The notes beneath the pieces are model-generated. The model was not told where the DNA came from and ran no database searches. It saw only the letters and a program-made list of their open reading frames with translations. Position numbers and translations under genes: made by a program. Below are positions 79 through 10,601 of a stretch of DNA of 43,457 nucleotides, piece by piece (within the stretch, counting starts at the first letter, position 1; each line of letters starts with the position of its first letter). This DNA is from an uncultured Bacilli bacterium (lineage in GTDB: Bacteria; Bacillota_I; Bacilli_A; RF39; UBA660). The stretch lies in contig CALVOL010000006.1 in the NCBI GenBank assembly GCA_944350285.1, positions 1 to 43,457 of the forward strand, read 5' to 3'.

Positions 79-101
79 GGAACATTAACTGTTCCTTTTT
101 T
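79..101. terminator. Bidirectional hairpin terminator between convergent genes
   Basis: GGAACA (79-84) pairs with TGTTCC (90-95), followed by a T run on the plus strand and a T-rich stretch on the minus strand. The stop codon of the minus-strand DUF4186 gene lies in its loop, so it can end both convergent transcripts. Confidence 0.75.
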
Positions 102-435
102 CGTTAGAAATCCATTTCATAATAAGACGAACAACATACTCTTGTTCACTTTCTGTAAGACATCTTCCCTTTGGAATATGATGCCATTTATATAAACAAT
201 TCCTACAACATGTAGCCGTTGCATGCTGTGCTACAAATACAGGATGCCCCTTCCATGGTGTTTGATGACCATCATTCGCTAAATCCTTGGGAGCAAGTCT
301 CTTCTCAATAAAATCATGAGCATGCCTCTCTATCGTATCCATTCCTTTTTCGTCAATATACAATTTATCTTTCTCTGATAAATGAAATTTACTACGAAAC
401 TTAGATTTAGAAAGTCTATTTAAAATATCATCCAT
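85..435 (-). CDS. DUF4186 family protein
   Basis: A 116-residue soluble protein matching the DUF4186 family at full length, judged by eye from the start MDDILNRLSKSKFRSKFHL, the central TPWKGHPVFVAQHATATCCR segment and the C-terminal GRCLTESEQEYVVRLIMKWI. The CC-x2-C cysteines next to conserved histidines (QHATATCCRNC) could bind metal; that is inference, and the family function is not known to me. The ATG at 435 has an AAGAGG-type site about 8 bases upstream. It is the last gene of a minus-strand run, 23 bases after the HD-domain gene, so probably co-transcribed with it. Confidence 0.8.
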   Translation of the reverse strand: MDDILNRLSKSKFRSKFHLSEKDKLYIDEKGMDTIERHAHDFIEKRLAPKDLANDGHQTPWKGHPVFVAQHATATCCRNCLYKWHHIPKGRCLTESEQEYVVRLIMKWISNEKRNS

Positions 436-458
436 ACCATACGCCTCTTCATATAAAA

Positions 459-1067
459 TTATAAATTATCTTTAATTTCAGGAAATAAATCATATAAATT
501 GTATCCTAACAAATTATCAAAATATTCTTTTAGTTTAACAGTCTCCACAATATGATAGTGAGTTTTAGCATAAATACCATGTCTAAGTAATAAATCAATC
601 ATTCTCTTATCAACAGTAAGAATTTTTTTGGTACACATTAAGTCACATAGATTAATTATTTTATCATAAATAGAATATTCCTTTGCTATAAAATTTTTTA
701 CAAACTCATAATTAGGATTGCCTTTATCAGTTTCATCACGATCATTAGAAATACAATCAATATCATTATTTAAAAAAGAATGTTTAATACAAATTCCAGC
801 ATATTCATCACCATATCCTAATGATTTTATATAATGATAACCATTCATTGCATGAGGAAAAACTCCACTTTCTTGATAAGGAAAATATTTTCCAATATCA
901 TGGATATAACCCAAAGTTTTGGCGTAATCTCCATCTAATTTCAGAGCCTTTGCTATAACTTCAGCTGCTCTACCAACACAGATAGAATGATCTATCCAAT
1001 GAGGATTATTTAACTTGACTCTAAAATCTTCTAACATACTTAAAGCTTCATTACTCGATAGTTTCAT
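459..1067 (-). CDS. HD-domain phosphohydrolase
   Basis: An HD-superfamily metal-dependent hydrolase of 202 residues. From the chosen start, the motif residues are H27 (HWIDHS), H56-D57 (YIHDIGK), H72 (FPHAMNG) and H96 (CIKHSF), a normal HD pattern. Substrates in this superfamily are nucleotides or other phosphate esters. The open frame extends to a GTG at 1073, but AGGAGG sits five bases before the ATG at 1067, so that ATG is the start. The ribosome binding site lies inside the end of the upstream nucleotidase/nucleoside hydrolase gene and the two genes overlap by 17 bases, which suggests translational coupling and a shared pathway. Confidence 0.82.
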   Translation of the reverse strand: MKLSSNEALSMLEDFRVKLNNPHWIDHSICVGRAAEVIAKALKLDGDYAKTLGYIHDIGKYFPYQESGVFPHAMNGYHYIKSLGYGDEYAGICIKHSFLNNDIDCISNDRDETDKGNPNYEFVKNFIAKEYSIYDKIINLCDLMCTKKILTVDKRMIDLLLRHGIYAKTHYHIVETVKLKEYFDNLLGYNLYDLFPEIKDNL

Positions 1068-2493
1068 ACACACCTCCTAATTTTCCAAATAAGTCTCTAT
1101 AAATATTATTGACATCCAAATAATTAACAAAAGTAATATAATGCTGATTATGAGTCATTATATAAGAAGTATCATCACTTATTTTAGGAGAGTGAATTTG
1201 ATTTGTTTGAAACCATTCTGGGTTTATAAGATATGCAATAACGCTGATATCCCAAATCACTCTTCGATCTCTTAAGTCAGTATACCCATCATCACAAAAT
1301 CTTTGTATCAAATAATTACAAAGTTCATTTTTATTTTTTAGATGATGTTCCAATTCATAAACAGATGTTACTAAATTAGATGCTACATTTTTACAAGGAA
1401 TAACCGTCAACTTTACTGTGGAACTAAACACTGTTTGTACGGCCTTTACATCTTGTTGAAAGTTAAATTCCAGATTATTATTTTGTAATAAGCTATGCCC
1501 ACCTAGCCAAATAATTTCAATTCTATCTACTATTTTAGGTTCTTTCTTTATTGCCAAAGCAACATTAGTAATCGCGCCAATTGCCATGATGTATGTCTTA
1601 TTATTTTTTAAAGAAATTTCAATAATTTTATTTACCGCATCATTATTATCATCATAATTATTTTGCATATAATCTAAAGAACCTTTAAAAACTTTATCAG
1701 TGGTATCAAAATCTAACAATTTGCAAATTTTTAATACTTCATGATAACTTAATTCTTGACTATTCACTGTAGTAACATGCTTAGAAGGTCGTGAAAATGG
1801 TGCAATGGTAATAGCTTCAATATTAAAAATATCTTGAGATCGAATCATATAAGCTAAAGCAAATTGGTCATCACATTCATTATAAGTATCTGTATCTAAA
1901 ATGACATTCAATTTAGGTTGTTTATAACGATGAATAAAGATATAAATATCCTTCCAACTATAGACTCTTTTTATATTGCAGTTTCTATTACAAGGTTTGT
2001 CCATTATAAGTGTCATTACTCCCGCATGAATACAAGCTTGACATATATGAACAGAATCATCAATCATGATATCAATATGATGTTCTATGCATGCTTTAGC
2101 CTTAGATTCTTTATCATTACTATTTGTAAAAATAAGTTTATCATAAGTAATATGATTTTGTTTTAGCCAATCTACAGTCATATTCACTGGATTTGAATAT
2201 TCTCCATTATCTCGTCCTGTAATAAGATAAATAGCATGGCCTTCCTCTTTTAGTTTATCGATGTACTCTTTCGCTCCATCAATTACAGTTAAATCTTTAA
2301 CGATTCGCTCAATATTAGAATGATAAAAATCAGAAATTTCTTCTTTTGACCAATCAAACATTCCTTCAGTTATATAAAGATTTTCGTTTATAATTCCATG
2401 ATTCCTCAAAGTTTTATCATGTTTTAAAAACTCGCGTTGTAAGACCTCATCAAAATTTGAAATAACATTATCTATATCAATTCCTATACGCAT
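1051..2493 (-). CDS. HAD 5'-nucleotidase fused to nucleoside hydrolase
   Basis: A 480-residue two-domain enzyme. Residues 1-190 resemble the 5'(3')-deoxyribonucleotidase branch of the HAD superfamily: GIDIDNV carries the DxD nucleophile (D6/D8), YLITGR is motif II and DIMIDDS is the acidic motif. Residues about 195-480 are an inosine/uridine-type nucleoside hydrolase: DTDTYNECDDQFAL is the metal and ribose-binding signature and AIGAITNVALA is the second hallmark. Such a chain could remove the phosphate and then split the glycosidic bond of one nucleotide (inference). The frame opens at GTG 2502, but an AGGTG site precedes the ATG at 2493. The following HD gene overlaps its 3' end. Confidence 0.85.
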   Translation of the reverse strand: MRIGIDIDNVISNFDEVLQREFLKHDKTLRNHGIINENLYITEGMFDWSKEEISDFYHSNIERIVKDLTVIDGAKEYIDKLKEEGHAIYLITGRDNGEYSNPVNMTVDWLKQNHITYDKLIFTNSNDKESKAKACIEHHIDIMIDDSVHICQACIHAGVMTLIMDKPCNRNCNIKRVYSWKDIYIFIHRYKQPKLNVILDTDTYNECDDQFALAYMIRSQDIFNIEAITIAPFSRPSKHVTTVNSQELSYHEVLKICKLLDFDTTDKVFKGSLDYMQNNYDDNNDAVNKIIEISLKNNKTYIMAIGAITNVALAIKKEPKIVDRIEIIWLGGHSLLQNNNLEFNFQQDVKAVQTVFSSTVKLTVIPCKNVASNLVTSVYELEHHLKNKNELCNYLIQRFCDDGYTDLRDRRVIWDISVIAYLINPEWFQTNQIHSPKISDDTSYIMTHNQHYITFVNYLDVNNIYRDLFGKLGGVYETIE

Positions 2494-2534
2494 TTTTATC
2501 ACCTAAAAATATTATACAATACTAGGAAAACGAA

Positions 2535-2565
2535 AAAAAGAATAAATGAAAAATCTATTCTTTTA
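2535..2565 (-). terminator. Terminator after the transglutaminase-like gene
   Basis: An AT-rich hairpin built on GAATA/TATTC arms around a T-rich loop. On the minus strand it is followed by a run of seven T. It lies between the stop at 2570 and the start of the next minus-strand gene, so the two are probably separate transcription units. Confidence 0.6.
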
Positions 2566-2569
2566 TAAA

Positions 2570-3664
2570 TTATTTTTGAAGTCTACTTGGAAATACAGGG
2601 GGACGATAATCTTGAAGTTTTAAAGTTTTACAAAGCTCCATAGGAGTAGGTTCGTAAAGATTAGAATTCAAATCATTCTCTGAGAGAGTAGGACATAAAG
2701 TAGCAGGATTATGATGTCCGATTTGCTTTGCAGTTTCACTTCCGAAAAACAAATAATCTGAACTAAAACTAGCTGCTTTCAAACTTTCTGAATATTGATG
2801 TTTATTTCTTGTTATACACCATGTATTATCCACAAAGTAGTACTGTCCATCATCTAGCATGACAACATTCCAAACATGATTATCCCCATACATACTTCTT
2901 GTCCATACATTGAAAGAAGGATTATTTAAAAGAAGAGTAGTCGCATTACCAATTCCTGCACACACTCCAAAATGTTCAAATAAAACAGTTTCAGGATTTA
3001 CAGTAAGTGGAATAGTAATATCCCTACCAAAAGAGTCCGTAATATAAGTTCCTAAAATACCTGCACTAATATTATCAGCATCTACATATTGAACGAAATC
3101 CTGTAAATAATCAGAAACAACCATAGTTTTATAGATTGCACTATTACCTTGATATTTCATAGCAAGATGATGGACAATTTCTTCTATTCTCTTTAAAGTT
3201 TCCTTAGAAATTTGATTATAAGCAGTAGTGCTAGGATAAAGTGTCTTTGTCATCGTATATAAAGAAACATGCTGAGTTTCTTGTAATATGGGGTTCCACA
3301 ATACATAACTAAATGGAATCTCTCCGGTAGTCTTTTGAAAAATAGCAAAATCAAGAGAAGAACGATCTTTATTTTGATAGTCATCTACTAACGATAGAGT
3401 AACATTTTCATAATCCTTTAATTCACTTTCAATAAACGTTAAACATTCATAATTTTTAGAATAAAGCTTATCACATTGTTTAAAAGATAAAACTCTTTTT
3501 AATAAATCAAAATTCCTTTTTAAACTATGCAAATCTTCAATATAAATACTTCGAGACATTCTTGTCTTAATTTCCTCATCACTTTTTCCAATAAAATCAT
3601 GAAACTGATAAATAGGTTCAACTTTCTTTTTTATAACAGGTCTAGGAACAGGTCTTATCATCAT
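2570..3664 (-). CDS. Transglutaminase-like cysteine protease-fold protein
   Basis: A 364-residue protein with a C-terminal transglutaminase-like domain. The Cys-His-Asp triad can be read as C235 (HFGVCAGIGNA), H263 (YGDNHVWNVV) and D279 (YYFVDNTWC), with normal spacing. The first 200 residues are helical and unassigned. There is no signal peptide or membrane segment, so it looks cytoplasmic. In this superfamily the fold does peptide or amide bond hydrolysis or transfer; the substrate is unknown here. Two ATGs stand in tandem at the start (3664 and 3661), with an AAGGTGAG site better spaced for the second. It has its own promoter and terminator. Confidence 0.78.
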   Translation of the reverse strand: MMIRPVPRPVIKKKVEPIYQFHDFIGKSDEEIKTRMSRSIYIEDLHSLKRNFDLLKRVLSFKQCDKLYSKNYECLTFIESELKDYENVTLSLVDDYQNKDRSSLDFAIFQKTTGEIPFSYVLWNPILQETQHVSLYTMTKTLYPSTTAYNQISKETLKRIEEIVHHLAMKYQGNSAIYKTMVVSDYLQDFVQYVDADNISAGILGTYITDSFGRDITIPLTVNPETVLFEHFGVCAGIGNATTLLLNNPSFNVWTRSMYGDNHVWNVVMLDDGQYYFVDNTWCITRNKHQYSESLKAASFSSDYLFFGSETAKQIGHHNPATLCPTLSENDLNSNLYEPTPMELCKTLKLQDYRPPVFPSRLQK

Positions 3665-3688
3665 CTCACCTTCTTTCGTTAAGGACGT

Positions 3689-3717
3689 ATTCTAGCATAA
3701 AAAAAGAGGAAAAACAA
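3689..3717 (-). promoter_or_regulatory. Sigma-A promoter for the transglutaminase-like gene
   Basis: On the minus strand, TTGTTT (3717-3712) and TAGAAT (3694-3689) are separated by 17 bases, 25 bases upstream of the start codon. Confidence 0.55.
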
Positions 3718-3761
3718 TTACCTATAAAAATAATTTATAAGTATAGTTCAAATAAATAAAA

Positions 3762-4709
3762 TTATTTTTTTTGAAAAATAATTAATTTATTTTCATTTTT
3801 ACTACTTGCTCTTTTAGAAGTAGGTATATTTTCGATATTTTCCAATAAAAATCCTTCTTCGAGTGCTATATTTATCCAGTCATCAATAATATGAATTCTT
3901 TTAGTATCTTCCAGATTAACTAAATGATAGCCGCCATATTTAGTATATTGAAATATGTTATGAATAGTCTTAGTTACATAAAAACGTAACCATTTCTTAT
4001 AAGAGTTATATTGAATATAAGATTGAGTGTTACTATTAGTATAAGTTTCATAATTAAAATAAGGAGGGCTACTAAAAGACAAGTCAACTGCATCAACAAG
4101 AGAAGAAAGAAAGATTTCAGAACCGAGATTATACAATAGAGGAACATTATCACTTTTTAAAACTTGCAAAATCCATTTAGAAAAATGTAACAGTCTTATA
4201 TACAATTCTTTGTAAGGGTCAACTCCAATATATCGATAATGATAAGGGCTAGATAAGGCACCCAACAATCTACTTCCAAATCCACAAGAATAGTCAAAAA
4301 TCGTAGCATTTGAAAAAGGAATATATCGTTCAAATATTTTTCTGGCTATAACAGGATTAAAATTATTAACTTTTCCAACCATCGATGAATGAAAGAAAAA
4401 ACTTCGCAAATTTGCTACATCACTTTTTTTCTGATAAAAGTTAGAATGATTATCAATGTAATTTAATGCAATACATAGCAGTTCGTCGCTATCAATAATC
4501 TCTTGAGGAGAATATTTTCCATTTTTAGATTTTGCTTGAAATATAAGGTCTTCAAAAAAATAATTTAATAGTTTACTAATATTCCTATTTTGTATATCAA
4601 AATGAGAGGAGTCTAAATTTTGAGAAGAAAAAGTTTTTAAAATACTTTCTAAATATTGCTCGTTATATTGATGATAAATATTTTTTCTAATGTTGTCTAT
4701 TCTTTCCAT
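3762..4709 (-). CDS. Orphan SAM-dependent DNA methyltransferase
   Basis: A 315-residue class I methyltransferase. Motif I is at residues 137-150 (IFDYSCGFGSRLLG) and is followed by an acidic strand (IGVDP). Motif IV is SSPPYF at 213-218, an (S/D/N)PPY motif of amino-methyltransferases that make N6-methyladenine or N4-methylcytosine. The order I then IV and the S in the first position fit the DNA N4C/N6A group. A helical region of 135 residues precedes motif I. No restriction endonuclease or specificity subunit is next to it, so this is probably an orphan or a single-gene defence remnant. Start: ATG at 4709 with AGAAAGG upstream. RNA or protein targets cannot be excluded. Confidence 0.75.
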   Translation of the reverse strand: MERIDNIRKNIYHQYNEQYLESILKTFSSQNLDSSHFDIQNRNISKLLNYFFEDLIFQAKSKNGKYSPQEIIDSDELLCIALNYIDNHSNFYQKKSDVANLRSFFFHSSMVGKVNNFNPVIARKIFERYIPFSNATIFDYSCGFGSRLLGALSSPYHYRYIGVDPYKELYIRLLHFSKWILQVLKSDNVPLLYNLGSEIFLSSLVDAVDLSFSSPPYFNYETYTNSNTQSYIQYNSYKKWLRFYVTKTIHNIFQYTKYGGYHLVNLEDTKRIHIIDDWINIALEEGFLLENIENIPTSKRASSKNENKLIIFQKK

Positions 4710-4768
4710 ATTTACCTTTCTCCCTTATAAAAATGTCTTAAAATTAAATTGCAAGTAAATTACAATGT

Positions 4769-4797
4769 ATTATACCACTGTGTTTTTTCTATATCAA
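4769..4797 (-). promoter_or_regulatory. Sigma-A promoter for the methyltransferase gene
   Basis: Minus strand: TTGATA (4797-4792), 17-base spacer, TATAAT (4774-4769), 60 bases before the ATG at 4709. One of the cleanest promoters in the window. Confidence 0.7.
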
Positions 4798-5045
4798 ACT
4801 AATTAATCAATTTAAAAATATAGTACTATTTAACTTAAAAAAAGGATATTAAATGTATACAGTAAAAAACTAAGAAGAGAATGAAATGAAAAAGCTACTA
4901 TTACCAAAAATACAAATATAGATTGAAAAAAAGTTATTACAGAACATAGAGCAATTACGTCATCGATTTTTTAAGAAGATTAGACAAAATAAACTTAAGC
5001 ACTTTTTTAAAATTAAATTATATGATAATACTAGGAGGAGCTGTT
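4798..5045. other. Intergenic stretch with a possible broken small ORF
   Basis: This AT-rich gap separates divergent genes. On the plus strand, ATG at 4886 opens MKKLLLPKIQI, stops at TAG 4919-4921, and the same frame continues after it with IEKKLLQNIEQLRHRFFKKI. That string is amphipathic and faintly like the IE-x-LR core of Spo0E-type phosphatases. It may be a decayed small gene or chance; no ribosome binding site of note precedes it. No other gene is seen here. Confidence 0.25.
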
Positions 5046-6029
5046 ATGTTCAAAAAAAATATTAATAATTTAGATAGATTAATTGGTAATACCCCTATGG
5101 TTAAGATAAAATATCGTTACCAGAATAAGGAAGGCTATGTCTATGCCAAATTAGAGTATTACAACTATACAGGCAGTATTAAAGACCGTCTTGCTTATTA
5201 TATGATAAAAAAGTCAAAGGAAGAAAAAATATTAAAAGAAAACCAAGCAATCGTCGAAGCAACAAGTGGTAACACAGGAATTTCCTTTGCAGCATTAGGA
5301 GCTTATTGTTCTCATCCTGTTCACATTTTTATGCCAGATTGGGTAAGCGAAGAGAGAATAAAGATAATGAAACTATATGGAGCTCATGTATATTTAGTAA
5401 GTAAAGAAGAAGGCGGATTCAAAGAAGCAATAAAAAGAAGTGAAGCATTTGCCTCTAAAATAAATGGTTTCTTACCAAGACAATTTGAAAATCCATTAAA
5501 TATAGAAGCTCATTATTTCACCACAGCGAAAGAAATATTAAACGAAGTAAACGGGTTAGATAGTTTTGTGAGTGGAATAGGAACAGGTGGTACTTTAATG
5601 GGTATAGCAAAAAGATTAAAAGAATACAATAACAATATTAAAATTATTGCCTTAGAACCAGATAAAATGCCTCTTTTAAGTGGTGGTAAAATCATAGAAA
5701 ACCATAAAATTGAAGGAATAGGAGATGAGTTTATTCCGAAACTCGTAAACCAAAGTCTTATAGATAAAGTAATTAAAATTAATGACGAAGACGCGATAAA
5801 TATGAGCAGAATTTTAGCGAATAAATTAGGTTTAGGAGTAGGAATTTCTTCCGGTGCTAACTTTTTAGCTAGTGTATTAGCAGGCGGTAAGACTACAGTA
5901 ACTGTATTTCCAGATGATTTAAAAAAATACTTATCTACTGATTTATCAAAAGAGATAGATGAAGATAAAGAGTTATTATCAAATAAAATAGAGTTACTAG
6001 GTTTAGAAGTAGTTAGTAAAGATATTTAA
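5046..6029 (+). CDS. PLP-dependent cysteine synthase-family enzyme
   Basis: A 327-residue fold-type II PLP enzyme of the cysteine synthase / cystathionine beta-synthase group. Lys46 in YTGSIKDRLA is the Schiff-base lysine, SGNTG at 74-78 the substrate loop and GTGGT at 179-183 the phosphate-binding loop. It would form cysteine from O-acetylserine and sulfide, or catalyse a related beta-replacement. No cysE or sulfur gene lies nearby, so the substrate is open. The frame extends to 5022, but GGAGG at 5034-5038 sets the ATG at 5046. The last 40 residues are charged and may be a short regulatory tail. Confidence 0.88.
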   Translation: MFKKNINNLDRLIGNTPMVKIKYRYQNKEGYVYAKLEYYNYTGSIKDRLAYYMIKKSKEEKILKENQAIVEATSGNTGISFAALGAYCSHPVHIFMPDWVSEERIKIMKLYGAHVYLVSKEEGGFKEAIKRSEAFASKINGFLPRQFENPLNIEAHYFTTAKEILNEVNGLDSFVSGIGTGGTLMGIAKRLKEYNNNIKIIALEPDKMPLLSGGKIIENHKIEGIGDEFIPKLVNQSLIDKVIKINDEDAINMSRILANKLGLGVGISSGANFLASVLAGGKTTVTVFPDDLKKYLSTDLSKEIDEDKELLSNKIELLGLEVVSKDI

Positions 6030-6039
6030 AAAACATAAT

Positions 6040-6076
6040 AAAAAAACACTTCATTCATCAATAACGAATGAAATGC
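6040..6076 (-). terminator. Minus-strand terminator below the kinase-like gene
   Basis: On the minus strand a 10-bp stem with one G-T pair (CATTTCATTC / GAATGAAGTG) and a 9-base loop is followed by seven T. It can end transcription from the gene at 6224-6925, about 150 bases after its stop. A separate perfect 8-bp hairpin (GATACAGT/ACTGTATC, 6148-6174) lies in that 3' region. Confidence 0.65.
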
Positions 6077-6223
6077 CTACACATAAATTAGGATAATATT
6101 CAATGTTTCAAAATGGAATATTTCTTTTTTTATATACAAATTTTCTTGATACAGTTAAAGCTTCTTACTGTATCCTAAACAATATATTATATCGGTATCT
6201 CAATATACATAGTAATTTCTCCA

Positions 6224-6925
6224 TCAATTATTTTTGATATAATCTAATGGTGTTTTATACTTACATAGTTTTTTTGAAATACTACAAGTTAAACTCTGTC
6301 CTTCTTGGAAAAATAAGTCAAAAACTTGTTCTTCATATCTATCAGAATAACTTCTACATTTCTCGAACAAATCTATGAATAAATTTTGCAAACAATTTAC
6401 ATTATTTCTTTCAATATCATAATAGCTCTCATTTTCTGCTAGTTTACAACAATCCAAGTCAATTAATATAATTTTATCTTTGCAAAAAACAGTGTTTTCT
6501 CTTTTAAAATCCTTCATCCATACTTTTAACTCTGTAAGAATATAAGTTAAATTTTCCAGTTCGCGTAAATTATATATTAAATATTCTGTAGACTCTTTCA
6601 TTATATTAGCAAATCTATCTTCTATATATAGATACTGATAGGCATCAACAACCAAATTCTGAATGTGACTTAATAAATATTTTTTACTCCTTATTTTGGC
6701 TCTATCATAATAAAGTTCTAATATTTTATTTATGTGTGGATGGTCTAGTTCTTTTAAAATATGAAAAAGTTTTAAATCCATTCTAACACTACAAGTAGAA
6801 TATGAAAAATATTGTTTTAAATAGTATTCATTCTCTAACTGAAAAATTCTTGAACTTTTTCCGTGGTGCTTTTCTTCCCCTAGATTAAAATCTATTAGTT
6901 CTCCCTTTGAATTATAATAATACAT
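6224..6925 (-). CDS. Small eukaryotic-type protein kinase-like protein
   Basis: A 233-residue protein with a compact kinase fold. The landmarks in order: HGKSSRIF near 21-28 for the glycine loop, K37 (EYYLKQY) for the ATP lysine, E59 in the alpha-C helix, D139-x-K141-x-x-N144 (KDFKREN) for the catalytic loop and D156-L-D158 in place of DFG. All key positions are present, so it may be an active atypical kinase or aminoglycoside-phosphotransferase-like enzyme. No receptor or membrane part is present. GGAGG precedes the ATG. An inverted repeat (AATAGT...ACTATT, 6969-6991) and a TATAAT on the minus strand at 6961-6956 lie just upstream. Confidence 0.55.
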   Translation of the reverse strand: MYYYNSKGELIDFNLGEEKHHGKSSRIFQLENEYYLKQYFSYSTCSVRMDLKLFHILKELDHPHINKILELYYDRAKIRSKKYLLSHIQNLVVDAYQYLYIEDRFANIMKESTEYLIYNLRELENLTYILTELKVWMKDFKRENTVFCKDKIILIDLDCCKLAENESYYDIERNNVNCLQNLFIDLFEKCRSYSDRYEEQVFDLFFQEGQSLTCSISKKLCKYKTPLDYIKNN

Positions 6926-7060
6926 AAAGATTCCTCCAAAATATTCATTGAATAGATTATATGAATAGAATAGTACACTTTTTTGTGACTATTGATTAAT
7001 TTTATTTCTATATATGAAAACTAAACTGAACAAATCACTTGTTGAAACGACTTTTTAGCC

Positions 7061-7087
7061 AAAAATAGTTGGTAATAAATAATTAAC
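7061..7087. repeat. Cassette 3'-flank repeat, copy 1
   Basis: A 27-base sequence containing GGTAATAAATAATTAAC that matches 8722-8748 at 24 of 27 positions. It lies about 60 bases beyond the stop of the WDGH gene, as copy 2 lies 43 bases beyond the stop of the orphan gene at 8791. Just before it, AAACGACTTTTTA (7045-7057) repeats 13 bases of the terminator after tRNA-Val at 10088-10100. Confidence 0.6.
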
Positions 7088-7144
7088 CATAAAACAAAGG
7101 CGATAATCATATTAAAACAAAATAAATTTTTTAGTTAAAAAGTT

Positions 7145-7531
7145 TTATTCTCTATTATTATTCGTTAATGATAAAATTCTTTCAAGAACATCATCACTAC
7201 TATAAAAATCATATTGAGGTGCTCTTTCTATTTCTGGAATATGAAATAAATCCCAATATTTTAATTTGATATGATAAGATGCAAGCCCACTAGGAGTATT
7301 AATGCCAGCTATAAAGTCACCTTCAAACATTGGATCATTCTCCTCGTCAAAGTGTTTTTTACTTTTCCAAGATATGTCAGGAAATAAATTACATAATGTG
7401 CAAAATAAAATAATTCTATGATGATATAATTCTCCAAACGTATGATGCCCATCACTAATTTCTTTTGTTGATATCTCATCAGATAATTTACTATCTATAA
7501 TTAAATCATTAATTTCTTTTAATTTTGACAT
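7145..7531 (-). CDS. WDGH-type phage-associated protein
   Basis: A 128-residue soluble protein whose core SDGHHTFGELYHHRIILF and downstream GDFIAGINTPSGLASYH and KYWDLF motifs match the small protein family carrying the WDGHHTFGELY motif, common in phages and prophages of Bacillota. Its function is not known to me. The frame extends to 7585, but GGAGTG lies five bases before ATG 7531 and the 18 extra residues are implausible. It stands alone between short repeats in the accessory region beside tRNA-Val, which agrees with a phage or island origin. Confidence 0.7.
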   Translation of the reverse strand: MSKLKEINDLIIDSKLSDEISTKEISDGHHTFGELYHHRIILFCTLCNLFPDISWKSKKHFDEENDPMFEGDFIAGINTPSGLASYHIKLKYWDLFHIPEIERAPQYDFYSSDDVLERILSLTNNNRE

Positions 7532-7585
7532 AATATCACTCCAAAATTCTTTATTATACAATATTATTAAAAAAACGGTTCCCAA

Positions 7586-7614
7586 TGGTGCCCTAAAGGA
7601 AGACGTACAACAAC
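7586..7614 (-). repeat. GGGCACCA scar, copy 1
   Basis: TGGTGCCC at the left and GTACAACAAC at the right bound a 29-base element that matches 8681-8709 at 24 of 29 positions. Read on the minus strand it ends in GGGCACCA, like the 3' end of a tRNA, but no T-arm or tRNA body can be folded upstream. It lies in the short gap between two minus-strand genes. Confidence 0.5.
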
Positions 7615-7616
7615 AT

Positions 7617-8501
7617 TTATATGTTAGATTCCAAAATGATTTTGTATTCTTTATCTAAATTATACAAAATGAGCTCATCCTCTAAAACCTGCTTTATAAA
7701 TTCTTTATCCTTTGTTCGAAGAATTTTATTAACTATTTTTTTTTGATTTATTTGCTGAATACCGTTTATATATTCACCTAAATACCAAATATTCTTAGAA
7801 TTAACAAAAAAATCGTCTAATAAATCGAAATTATAACCTTTTCCATCAAAATTTATTCCTAAACGCCATATATTTTCTAAAGCATTGTCATAATCTTTTG
7901 CTACATTTACTAAATCATTAAAATAATCTTGATCTATTTTTGGTATAGAAGGCACAAAAATATAAGATGTTATCAGTAGCATTAATTCTAAATCACTCAT
8001 ATTTTGAGCAATTTCAATATATGTTTGATTATGTGTTACTAAATTAAAGATTCTTTCATATTCATCTTCGTTATTAGTTATCAAATCTTCTATATTCATA
8101 TCTCTATTTTCAATAGTTTCTAATAAGTGATTTAAATCATTTATATATTTTTTTCCAGTCTTAGAATTTATGAAGACATTTATTTCATTAATAAGAGTAT
8201 CTTTATTAATTAATTTGTTTATGTATTTGTAAATAGTTTTAACAAAATAATTCTTTTTAGGAGTTAATGAAAAAGATAGTTCTTTAATATCTAAATTAAT
8301 AAATATTTCTCCATTCTTGCCATCAGTAAATTTTGTGTTTTTATTTAATTTAATATTGTATATATTTTCATCATAAAATATTTTTAAAATATTTCCTATT
8401 TGTAATTCATCAATTGTTTTAATAATTATTTTATCTTTATCTATTGCATATCCAAAATTAACTTTATTATTATCAATAGATAAATGGATATCTTTAAACA
8501 T
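7617..8501 (-). CDS. Orphan protein of the tRNA-proximal region
   Basis: A 294-residue protein I do not recognise. It is very rich in Asn, Ile, Lys and Asp. The first 90 residues look beta-rich, the rest helical (for example SDLELMLLITSYIFV near 168-182). There is no signal peptide, no convincing membrane segment and no catalytic motif. Base composition is even more AT-rich than its neighbours, a sign of recent acquisition. It stands alone between repeats at 7586 and 8551. Its upstream flank (8551-8582) is shared with the orphan gene at 8791-9633. A role in phage defence or as island cargo is a guess only. Confidence 0.65.
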   Translation of the reverse strand: MFKDIHLSIDNNKVNFGYAIDKDKIIIKTIDELQIGNILKIFYDENIYNIKLNKNTKFTDGKNGEIFINLDIKELSFSLTPKKNYFVKTIYKYINKLINKDTLINEINVFINSKTGKKYINDLNHLLETIENRDMNIEDLITNNEDEYERIFNLVTHNQTYIEIAQNMSDLELMLLITSYIFVPSIPKIDQDYFNDLVNVAKDYDNALENIWRLGINFDGKGYNFDLLDDFFVNSKNIWYLGEYINGIQQINQKKIVNKILRTKDKEFIKQVLEDELILYNLDKEYKIILESNI

Positions 8502-8550
8502 ATTTTCTACCCTCTGATTCTAGATTTTTTTGAAATATAAAATTGAATTA

Positions 8551-8582
8551 GTCAATTCACAAGTGTGTTTTATAAATTGACA
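8551..8582. repeat. Cassette 5'-flank repeat, copy 1
   Basis: Contains ACAAGTGTGTTTTATAAATT and matches 9741-9772 at 28 of 32 positions. Each copy lies about 50-110 bases upstream of the start codon of an otherwise unrelated minus-strand orphan gene. It may carry a promoter or be a recombination boundary; TTGAC at its minus-strand 3' end could be a -35 element. Confidence 0.65.
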
Positions 8583-8633
8583 AAATTCAATTTAATTTCT
8601 ATAAATATTCTATCATAAATTTATGTATATTAA

Positions 8634-8669
8634 AACTCGAACACAAATGATTCTCAGAAAGTTCGAGTT
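8634..8669. repeat. Inverted repeat beside the tRNA-flank copy
   Basis: AACTCGAAC (8634-8642) and GTTCGAGTT (8661-8669) are perfect 9-base inverted arms with an 18-base loop. The right arm belongs to the copied tRNA-Val flank. No T run follows, so it is not an obvious terminator. Confidence 0.6.
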
Positions 8670-8685
8670 ATCAATCAGTCTGGTG
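8658..8685. repeat. Copy of the tRNA-Val 3' flank
   Basis: This 28-base stretch matches 10128-10155, the sequence just beyond and including the CCA end of tRNA-Val, with two mismatches. Common core: GTTCGAGTTA, then AATCA, then TCTGGTG. It is 1.47 kb from the intact tRNA. This is what an old attachment site, or a decayed duplicate of a tRNA gene end, would leave behind. Confidence 0.7.
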
Positions 8686-8709
8686 CCCGAGAGAGAGAAG
8701 TACAACAAC
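8681..8709 (-). repeat. GGGCACCA scar, copy 2
   Basis: Partner of 7586-7614 (24 of 29 bases alike). On the minus strand it ends in CTCTCGGGCACCA and runs straight into the copied tRNA-Val flank, so it occupies the place of a tRNA 3' end. No complete tRNA fold is present. Confidence 0.5.
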
Positions 8710-8721
8710 TCTTTGAGCAAA

Positions 8722-8748
8722 AGAAATAGTTAGTAATAAATCATTAAC
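8722..8748. repeat. Cassette 3'-flank repeat, copy 2
   Basis: Matches 7061-7087 at 24 of 27 positions, with the core TAGTAATAAATCATTAAC. It lies between the second scar and the 3' end of the next orphan gene. Confidence 0.6.
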
Positions 8749-8790
8749 TAACTATATTATAACATTATTTATATAAATTTTAAAATACAT

Positions 8791-9633
8791 TTAATTCATT
8801 TTTTTGGATAAAACTGGTGCATCTTCAGAATCAGAGATTATATATTCATATTGTTTGCTAGAGTGATTCATACTACTATCAAAACGCTCACTTAATTGTT
8901 GATTATAAATTGCTTGTCTTAAATTATCAATTATTTGTTCAGAAGATTGATTTAAATTATGACTAGATATTATACTTGTTACAATTCTTTCATATTCTCT
9001 TGATTCATATAAATTACTTAATTCACAAATCATTGGGACAGTAGAACCTTTTGAACCATTATTATTGGAATATAGTATGTGGTTCCAATCTAAATCCAAA
9101 TTATTTATTGTAGTTCCAGCATAATTAACAGAAAGATAATGAACTAAAACATTAGCTAATAAATATTTGTAGACTTCTTCATTAACTTCATCAATAGAAA
9201 TTGTCACTCCTTCTTGAATTATATTACCATATTGTCTTAAATCTATATCAATTTTTCTTCCTTTTATATTTTTATCTGAAAAAGAGAAAAATGTACAAAA
9301 AGATAAGTCCATAATAATATTTTGTTTTCTATACCTATCAGTTAAAACTAATTCTCTAAATTTATCATGGACCTTTTTAAACATTTCTAGCCATTGGTCA
9401 CATTTCTCAATAATTTCTTCTGCTGATAAAGTAGGTTGTATAAACACTTTTTCTAACATGCCTTCGCCTTTAATTGTATTTATAAGTGATGAACTACCAG
9501 TAATATTTAAACCCTGATTTTGACATTCAACATCAACTGTCATATCTCCATGAGAGTCTTCTGTAGTTATACTTATTTTATCATTCTCTTCAAGAATAAT
9601 GTGTTGAACTCCATTGATATTTTCAAATTTCAT
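8791..9633 (-). CDS. Orphan protein of the tRNA-proximal region
   Basis: A 280-residue protein I do not recognise. The N-terminal 60 residues are beta-rich and carry an acidic stretch (TTEDSHGDMTVDVEC); the middle is helical with a conserved-looking LANVLVHYLSVNYAG; the C-terminal 60 are Ser/Asn/Gln-rich and probably disordered. No signal peptide or membrane span. The ATG has a strong GGGAGGT site. Upstream on the minus strand are TATAAT and an inverted repeat (ATAACAT...ATGTTAT) that could be an operator. It is a single-gene unit flanked by the repeats at 8722 and 9741. Confidence 0.65.
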   Translation of the reverse strand: MKFENINGVQHIILEENDKISITTEDSHGDMTVDVECQNQGLNITGSSSLINTIKGEGMLEKVFIQPTLSAEEIIEKCDQWLEMFKKVHDKFRELVLTDRYRKQNIIMDLSFCTFFSFSDKNIKGRKIDIDLRQYGNIIQEGVTISIDEVNEEVYKYLLANVLVHYLSVNYAGTTINNLDLDWNHILYSNNNGSKGSTVPMICELSNLYESREYERIVTSIISSHNLNQSSEQIIDNLRQAIYNQQLSERFDSSMNHSSKQYEYIISDSEDAPVLSKKMN

Positions 9634-9790: not shown

Positions 9791-9819
9791 TTGTTTCAAG
9801 AACAAATGTTTGCTATAAT
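9791..9819 (+). promoter_or_regulatory. Sigma-A promoter of the small hydrophobic ORF
   Basis: TTGTTT (9791-9796), a 17-base spacer and TATAAT (9814-9819). Transcription would start near 9826 and give a leader of about 64 bases before the ATG at 9890. Confidence 0.7.
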
Positions 9820-9854
9820 CAATTTAGGAATACTTAATTAGATTGGGTACTATT

Positions 9855-9881
9855 CTCCTTTACTTTTAAAAGTGGAAGGAG
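9855..9881 (+). promoter_or_regulatory. Leader hairpin hiding the Shine-Dalgarno
   Basis: CTCCTT (9855-9860) pairs with AAGGAG (9876-9881), and inside it ACTTT pairs with AAAGT around a tiny loop. The 3' arm is the Shine-Dalgarno (AAGGAGGTGA, 9876-9885) of the small ORF that starts at 9890. The ribosome site is thus blocked when the stem is formed. Confidence 0.65.
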
Positions 9882-9889
9882 GTGAAATT

Positions 9890-9982
9890 ATGAGAAAATC
9901 AGAGAAATATCTTTGTACTATCATAATACTCCTTATTATTGTGATATTAATCATTTTAATAAAAATAGTACCAACTGCATAA
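9890..9982 (+). CDS. 30-residue hydrophobic peptide, candidate type I toxin
   Basis: ATG at 9890 opens 30 codons to TAA at 9980-9982, after a perfect AAGGAGGTGA site. The peptide has a short basic start (MRKSEKYL), one Ile/Leu-only membrane helix at about residues 9-26, and an end of IVPTA. It has the size, layout and composition of type I toxins, but I recognise no named family. Support for a toxin mRNA is structural: the Shine-Dalgarno lies in a stem, and GGTACTATTC at 9846-9855 can pair with GAATAGTACC at 10008-10017 beyond the stop. No antisense promoter was clearly found. It could instead be a harmless membrane peptide. Confidence 0.6.
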   Translation: MRKSEKYLCTIIILLIIVILIILIKIVPTA

Positions 9983-10006
9983 GTCGGTACTAAAACAAAG
10001 AAAATT

Positions 10007-10044
10007 GGAATAGTACCTAACGCTTCAAAATTAGGTATTCCTTT
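10007..10044 (+). terminator. 3' hairpin of the small hydrophobic ORF transcript
   Basis: GGAAT plus ACCTAA (10007-10020, with AGT bulged) pairs with TTAGGT plus ATTCC (10031-10041), followed by a weak T stretch. Its 5' arm contains the segment complementary to the leader at 9846-9855, so the two foldings compete. Confidence 0.5.
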
Positions 10045-10085
10045 AATATTTTATGAAGGTTTCTTCATCTATATACATAATAACA

Positions 10086-10113
10086 TAAAAACGACTTTTT
10101 AACAAGGTCGTTT
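10086..10113 (-). terminator. Terminator of the tmRNA-tRNA transcript
   Basis: Stem AAAACGAC/GTCGTTTT with T runs on both strands; on the minus strand it comes about 40 bases after the tRNA-Val CCA end. It could also stop plus-strand transcripts from the small ORF. Confidence 0.7.
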
Positions 10114-10150
10114 TCTATTGTTACTCAAAAGTTCGAGTTATTAATCAATC

Positions 10151-10227
10151 TGGTGGGTGATGTAGGACTCGAACCTATGACCCCTTGCATGTGACGCAAG
10201 TGCTCTAACCAACTGAGCTAATCACCC
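10151..10227 (-). tRNA. tRNA-Val (CAC)
   Basis: The acceptor stem GGGTGAT/ATCACCC, discriminator A and encoded CCA are all present. The D-arm has AGTTGGTTA, the anticodon stem is CTTGC/GCAAG, and the 7-base loop GTCACAT gives anticodon CAC, which reads the Val codon GUG. The T-arm has TTCGAGT in its loop with one A-C mismatch at the stem base. The loop carries G32 and U38, which is uncommon. Its 5' base is one nucleotide from the tmRNA 3' end, so both come from one precursor. Its 3' flank is copied at 8658-8685. Confidence 0.93.
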
Positions 10228-10228
10228 A

Positions 10229-10601
10229 TGGTGGAGCAGAGGGGAGTTGAACCCCTGTCCAAACAATCCTATATCTAAACGTCTACAGGTTTAGTTGGAA
10301 TTCATTTAATATAAGAATCGGATCCAACCCACCAAATTCTTATACGAGCTTTATGAATATTCGTAAAGTTATCTAAAGCAAACAACTTTATATATCTTAT
10401 GTTTATGAACCTTTAAACACCCTATAAGAGAAAGTGAATAAAAGCCTTCTTATTCGCTCTAAATTAAGCAGCTACAGGAGCGAAAGCTCCAAAAGAAGAG
10501 ACTGAGTTATTCTCGTCATTTAATTTTAAGGTTTGCATTTATAGTATGCCTACTACCTGCAATCTAAACTAGTAATTGCTGTCGAAACCATTTACTGCCC
10601 C
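10229..10601 (-). ncRNA. ssrA: tmRNA
   Basis: The ends form the alanine tRNA-like domain: 5' GGGGCAG pairs with 3' CTGCTCC, followed by ACCA, with GTTCAACTCC in the T-arm and TTTCGACAG near the 5' end. tmRNA frees stalled ribosomes by adding a degradation tag. The tag frame ends in S-S-F-G-A-F-A-P-V-A-A then TAA (minus strand, near 10467), and reads LNDENNS before that. The resume codon is unclear: a GCA in the usual context would give a six-residue frame ending in TGA, while the frame two bases earlier stays open to the VAA end. About 373 bases, one piece. Confidence 0.93.

Follow-up and report, generated by a model that had tools for sequence, protein, structure and literature searches.

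The locus described here lies in a window of 43,457 nt (the whole stretch of DNA that was analysed) from an uncultured Bacilli bacterium, and combines the features of a small mRNA gene on the plus strand with those of an antisense RNA gene on the minus strand (Table 1). Read directly, the plus strand holds everything that an initial annotation of the same DNA had listed, at coordinates that agree: a promoter, a 30-codon ORF for a hydrophobic peptide, a Shine-Dalgarno (SD) sequence in a perfect leader stem, a 10-base complement between the leader and the 3' region (GGTACTATTC in segment b with GAATAGTACC in segment b'), and four copies of the core GGTACTA/TAGTACC in alternating orientation (at 9846, 9966, 9986 and 10011). 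Absent from that list was a closing helix between AGGAATACTTAATT (segment a) and AATTAGGTATTCCT (segment a'). Since the hairpin and T-rich tract at the end of the unit would form a sense terminator, with T6 after the hairpin in many relatives, this helix implies that the first 14 nt of the mRNA pair with 14 nt beside the terminator tract. Segment a starts 3–11 nt past a -10-like TAnnnT box in 76 of 92 related loci.

Table 1. Features of the locus, with positions in the window
Feature	Position	Strand	Basis or remark
Sense promoter TTGTTT-17-TATAAT, TG-extended -10	9791..9819	+	Read directly; start near 9826
-35 TTGTTT; 17-nt spacer; -10 TATAAT	9791-9796; 9814-9819	+	Read directly
Segment a, mRNA 5' end, partner a'	9826..9839	+	Fold; covariation, 36 distinct pairs
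Segment b, leader, partner b' (or c)	9846..9855	+	Read directly; fold; pairing energies
Leader hairpin CTCCTT (9855-9860) / AAGGAG (9876-9881), buries SD	9855..9881	+	Read directly; fold
30-codon ORF, membrane-helix peptide, putative toxin MRKSEKYLCTIIILLIIVILIILIKIVPTA	9890..9982	+	ORF translation; selection; structure prediction
Segment c, 5' arm of c/c' hairpin	9964..9972	+	Fold; covariation
Segment c', 3' arm of c/c' hairpin	9986..9992	+	Fold; covariation
Segment b'	10008-10017	+	Inside sense terminator hairpin
Segment a'	10029-10042	+	Inside sense terminator hairpin
Sense terminator: hairpin GGAATAGTACCTAA..TTAGGTATTCC, then T-rich tract	10007..10053	+	Read directly; pairs covary in relatives
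Antisense promoter TTGTTA-17-TATTAT, TG-extended -10	10077..10105	-	Sequence; position kept in relatives
Predicted antisense RNA, ~113 nt, complementary to toxin mRNA 3' part	9958..10070	-	Promoter, 5' hairpin and terminator conserved
Antisense 5' hairpin ATGAAG-AAAC-CTTCAT	10053..10068	-	Read directly; kept in relatives
Antisense terminator: c'/c hairpin (9992-9966), then TTTTTATTAA	9957..9992	-	Sequence

Relatives of the locus were found from both of its ends. A peptide search of 59 related genomes, a check proposed at the outset, gave matches in 15, most but not all of them true family members. In the window's own genome the peptide led to three further loci (59% identity), with the parts in the same order. 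Weak peptide matches lacking the family anatomy (L015-L018) were discarded, as were two inside larger frames (L022, L024). For the 3' region, a covariance model (R1) was built from 21 of these loci with the window type left out; that it nevertheless matches the window at 9961-10086 (44.8 bits, E 4.7e-5) is an independent sign of homology. At E values up to 0.01, R1 matches 119 of the 193 genomes (~60%) and 94 of the 148 genera of the host's taxonomic family, with up to 15 matches per genome, many of them in tandem, and 148 of the 241 genomes in the order sample. A broader covariance model (R2) finds eight matches, including a weak one, in the genome of the window. Class- and phylum-level searches place the matches within the taxonomic family, bar two exceptions. 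A complete unit on a 12-kb contig of a genome from another family of the class (G515; L255 1733-1858, minus strand, near the contig end; E 1.2e-11) encodes the peptide MKKRIFVIKVLRYLSIILLLQIIMIIVIKK and could reflect horizontal transfer or a stray contig; a single match at E 0.0045 in a further family was taken for chance. The 3'-end pattern matches only metagenome-assembled genomes, the matches listed being labelled uncultured Bacilli, Tenericutes, Bacillales, Erysipelotrichaceae, "bacterium" and Candidatus Ventrenecus, and phage records, plasmids and viral contigs gave no match to the family.

Several individual loci and neighbourhoods deserve mention. One relative holds the unit in three tandem copies at ~350-bp spacing (L034 1501-2328, G147:C10), and another encodes a family-like peptide, MNKEKKYLYHIIFLLLLVIILILI, behind a different leader and with no R1 match listed (L029 1501-1575), which we read as a decayed or further diverged member. 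The window itself has a second, weak R2 match (6039-6163, plus strand, E 1.1e-5) without a toxin peptide. The match directly follows the stop codon of the gene (5022-6029) for a pyridoxal-phosphate enzyme, and resembles a leftover 3' half or may just be the terminator of that gene. Genes for tRNA-Val(cac) and tmRNA adjoin the locus on the minus strand (10151-10601), and the other side (85-9633) holds mostly minus-strand genes with mixed or no Pfam matches, as at an integration site. In a near-identical relative (L005, G013) the downstream sequence differs.

The antisense RNA had been called the missing piece by the initial annotation; a conserved antisense gene anatomy, comprising promoter, 5' hairpin and terminator, is present on the minus strand. 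The predicted RNA is complementary to c, c', b' and a' and overlaps the mRNA 3' end; in the window it also covers the last ORF codons because the stop codon sits in the c/c' loop, segment c lying 3' of the stop codon in most relatives. Its promoter occurs at the identical place in 114 of 124 distinct loci, with a spacer of 17 in 107, and has a mean match of 9.6/12 versus 6.9 in neighbouring stretches; its -35 box lies outside the R1 model used to find the loci. The 5' hairpin has a GNRA loop, read on the minus strand, in 53 of 94 distinct relatives, with varied stem pairs. Binding of the antisense RNA to the leader outside the overlap was weakly above shuffles (mean z -1.8), and we do not claim it. 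A further hairpin, AAAACGACTTTTTAACAAGGTCGTTTT (window 10088-10114), overlaps the antisense -35 box, and loci from other genera (L040, L056, L098, L072) have similar hairpins there; it could act as a reserve terminator or as an operator.

Folding of the predicted mRNA (9826-10044, 219 nt), also suggested by the initial annotation, yields -68.6 kcal/mol (mean of shuffles, -34.9; z = -8.6), with the ends paired through a:a'; none of 200 dinucleotide shuffles was as stable. Among 76 distinct mRNAs of relatives, z averages -10.0 (weakest -5.3), and the 5' end pairs with the 3' end in the minimum-energy fold of all 76. The observed fold and end closure are thus confirmed to lie far beyond chance. 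For a:a', the best leader partner of a' in 92 loci scores 25.5 on average, compared with 11.0 (sd 2.9) for shuffled segments, and exceeds the 99th percentile of these in 85; the helix is represented by 36 distinct pairs, with 69–100% pairing per position and many compensatory types. The c:c' and b':a' helices were scored with an explicit structure on a 38-sequence alignment, in which they are 94% paired. Both sides have changed in 12 of their 15 pairs (77 such cells versus 19 in shuffles), the covariation score was reached by none of 500 shuffles, and sliding the partners lowers pairing to 21–41%. The earlier annotation had named loss of the complementary segments in relatives as evidence against its proposal; the covarying helices exclude this. 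The competing c':b' helix covaries too (5 of 7 pairs), partly because the repeats are copies of one another. Pairing energies for b:b', c:c', b:c and c':b' are -21.6, -17.4, -13.9 and -11.8, respectively (shuffles, -8.1, -4.7, -4.7 and -7.2). Two other analyses were less informative: an RNAalifold consensus from a 21-sequence alignment yielded no helix but the alternative c':b' one, because a consensus restricted to one structure is confounded by pairings that compete, and was replaced by the explicit structure; and when leaders were swapped among loci, a locus's own partner came out on top in just 10 of 100, because relatives share sequence.

The peptide of the window is predicted by AlphaFold to form one helix spanning residues 3-29 (mean pLDDT 90), and its hydropathy reaches a maximum of 3.5 over 19 residues. 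Family peptides are strongly hydrophobic with a basic N-terminus: most of the 87 distinct ones begin M-x-K-[KR]-[ED], continue with a run of Ile, Leu, Phe and Val, and in 73 cases have Lys or Arg within the last two positions. Values of pN/pS for the ORF in four length classes (0.26, 0.32, 0.30 and 0.37) show the peptide to be under purifying selection, which also excludes the lack of ORF conservation that had been put forward as a possible objection. Against Pfam, NCBIfam and PADLOC models the peptide gave nothing above cut-off, and no Rfam family matched the locus above cut-off, in agreement with the earlier designation of the family as unnamed.

The peptide and antisense halves are coupled. 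In 97 of the 126 loci with enough DNA, an intact peptide accompanies the antisense promoter; 22 keep the promoter with no recognised intact peptide, three have an intact peptide and a weak antisense -35 (all three with an extended -10), and four lack both, an asymmetry that could be biased as the antisense half was what led to these loci. Starting instead from the peptide removes this bias: in 13 genomes such a search gave 37 matches at E < 0.002, of which 36 have an R2 match directly 3' and the remaining one ends at a contig edge. By eye, peptide loss takes the form of early stop codons (L013, L062, L119), a frameshift (L108) or peptide remnants only (L046, L058, L080, L076).

Taken together, we interpret the locus as a type I toxin-antitoxin-like unit of an apparently new family in uncultured gut Bacilli, a reading to which, from the sequence comparisons, we assign a probability of roughly 0.8. 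The anatomy, conservation, covariation, selection on the peptide and coupling of the halves behind it are established computationally. Comparison therefore strongly supports the original proposal that this is a type I toxin mRNA of a so far unnamed family, "toxin" being a property that we infer. Indeed, a small hydrophobic peptide can reside in the membrane without being toxic, and a harmless regulatory membrane protein under the control of a cis-antisense RNA would present identical anatomy. We consider this unlikely, though it is the alternative to be taken most seriously: the peptide is repeatedly lost through stop codons, frameshifts and deletions where the antisense half stays, the unit has a patchy distribution, with as many as 15 copies in one genome, and a triple repression by end closure, buried SD and antisense RNA is typical of toxin mRNAs.

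A short mobile repeat of the MITE type, with a and a' as terminal inverted repeats, would explain the multiple, often tandem copies and the inverted ends of 12-14 nt. It would leave unexplained why both promoters lie outside these ends and yet are conserved, why the ORF is under purifying selection, why the paired ends vary in concert from one sequence group to another, and why departures of a:a' from standard pairs are mostly G-U of the plus-strand RNA; we rejected this reading as very improbable. We likewise rejected, as having a negligible chance of being right, a fortuitous structure or functionless terminator cluster, for although the window is rich in A+T and hairpins of the terminator type are frequent, z lies near -10 in the 76 relatives, the helices covary and the peptide is under selection.

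If the locus is a type I toxin-antitoxin-like unit, its most likely mode of operation would be as follows; the folding steps are supported by covariation, and the others are modelled on the anatomy and on known systems. The plus strand would yield an mRNA of ~220 nt for a 30-residue, probably membrane-damaging peptide. During transcription, the local leader hairpin would hide the SD from the start, and the finished mRNA would then close on itself, a with a' and b with b', the SD being held in the local hairpin as well. In this closed form the mRNA would be out of reach of ribosomes and, at either end, of nucleases; end closure and SD hairpin together would thus keep it silent and protected until trimming, cutting or refolding exposes the leader. 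From the convergent promoter, an antisense RNA of ~113 nt covering c, c', b' and a' would pair with the 3' part of the mRNA, and the duplex would be cut and decay. Should the antisense supply fall, ribosomes would translate opened mRNA into the peptide, which would then damage the membrane. Both transcripts, the toxicity, the duplex decay and the activation step are what we infer here.

The activation step may differ from that of hok and aapA. In folding predictions for relatives, the SD is buried in full-length, 3'-trimmed and nascent forms alike, and 3' trimming hardly alters its predicted openness (0.175 vs 0.166, a thermodynamic prediction only). As the SD stays buried without the 3' end, the folding model does not reproduce a release by 3' trimming of the hok or aapA kind. 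The actual switch may be a cut in the leader, or the choice between b:c and b:b'. Somewhat against the odds, but worth stating, is that b, c, c' and b' form a true two-state RNA switch, with b:b' and c:c' in the closed mRNA and b:c and c':b' during transcription or after cutting. In this reading the antisense RNA, being complementary to b'-a', resembles the mRNA's own leader and competes with it for a single 3' site.

Comparison with known systems suggests that the locus would work like par/Fst, aapA/IsoA and bsrG/SR4, and by the features tested it appears to be a member of none. With par (parAD1 RNA I/RNA II; Fst/Ldr family) it shares convergent promoters, a 3' overlap and a buried SD. However, par has one bidirectional terminator shared by its RNAs and the direct repeats DRa and DRb, whereas in the present locus the two RNAs would end at terminators of their own and successive repeats switch orientation. 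Fst peptides carry PXXXG in the helix, a conserved W and a charged C-terminal tail; the Fst motif is not found among the family peptides listed, and only 8 of the 87 contain Pro and 4 contain Gly. In txpA/RatA of Bacillus subtilis, the antisense antitoxin RNA overlaps the toxin mRNA 3' end, as is predicted here. We know of no end-to-end closure of the present kind in txpA/RatA or bsrG/SR4, and the peptides of both are longer and unrelated. The bsrG/SR4 system of B. subtilis has the same 3'-overlapping antisense antitoxin RNA (PMC8309996). In Helicobacter pylori, aapA/IsoA encodes a small peptide in several chromosomal copies, with a small mRNA (225 nt for aapA3) that is closed by a 5'-3' long-distance interaction and forms SD hairpins during transcription (PMC6733600). 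The closed small mRNA and the multi-copy habit recur here, but the sequences are unrelated, the host phylum is different, and where the closed form of aapA buries the SD and 3' trimming frees it, the SD hairpin of the present family is predicted to persist. In hok/Sok, 5'-3' pairing like that predicted here renders the full-length mRNA inert and 3' processing activates it (PMC8309996). Sok, however, binds the leader close to the SD of mok; the antisense RNA of the present locus would instead cover the mRNA 3' end. Literature searches on toxin-antitoxin systems in RF39 and on type I systems in metagenome-assembled genomes, with subscription journals mostly outside their scope, found no report.

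The locus would thus introduce, for a group of uncultured gut Bacilli, an entire family of type I toxin-antitoxin-like units. Short peptides and antisense RNAs of this kind are easily missed by ordinary annotation, and the two covariance models find them. With more than 100 natural variants of one mRNA fold, how a toxin mRNA is kept silent during its synthesis becomes open to comparative study, and the family offers natural alleles in which the putative toxin has been lost next to antisense genes that have been kept.
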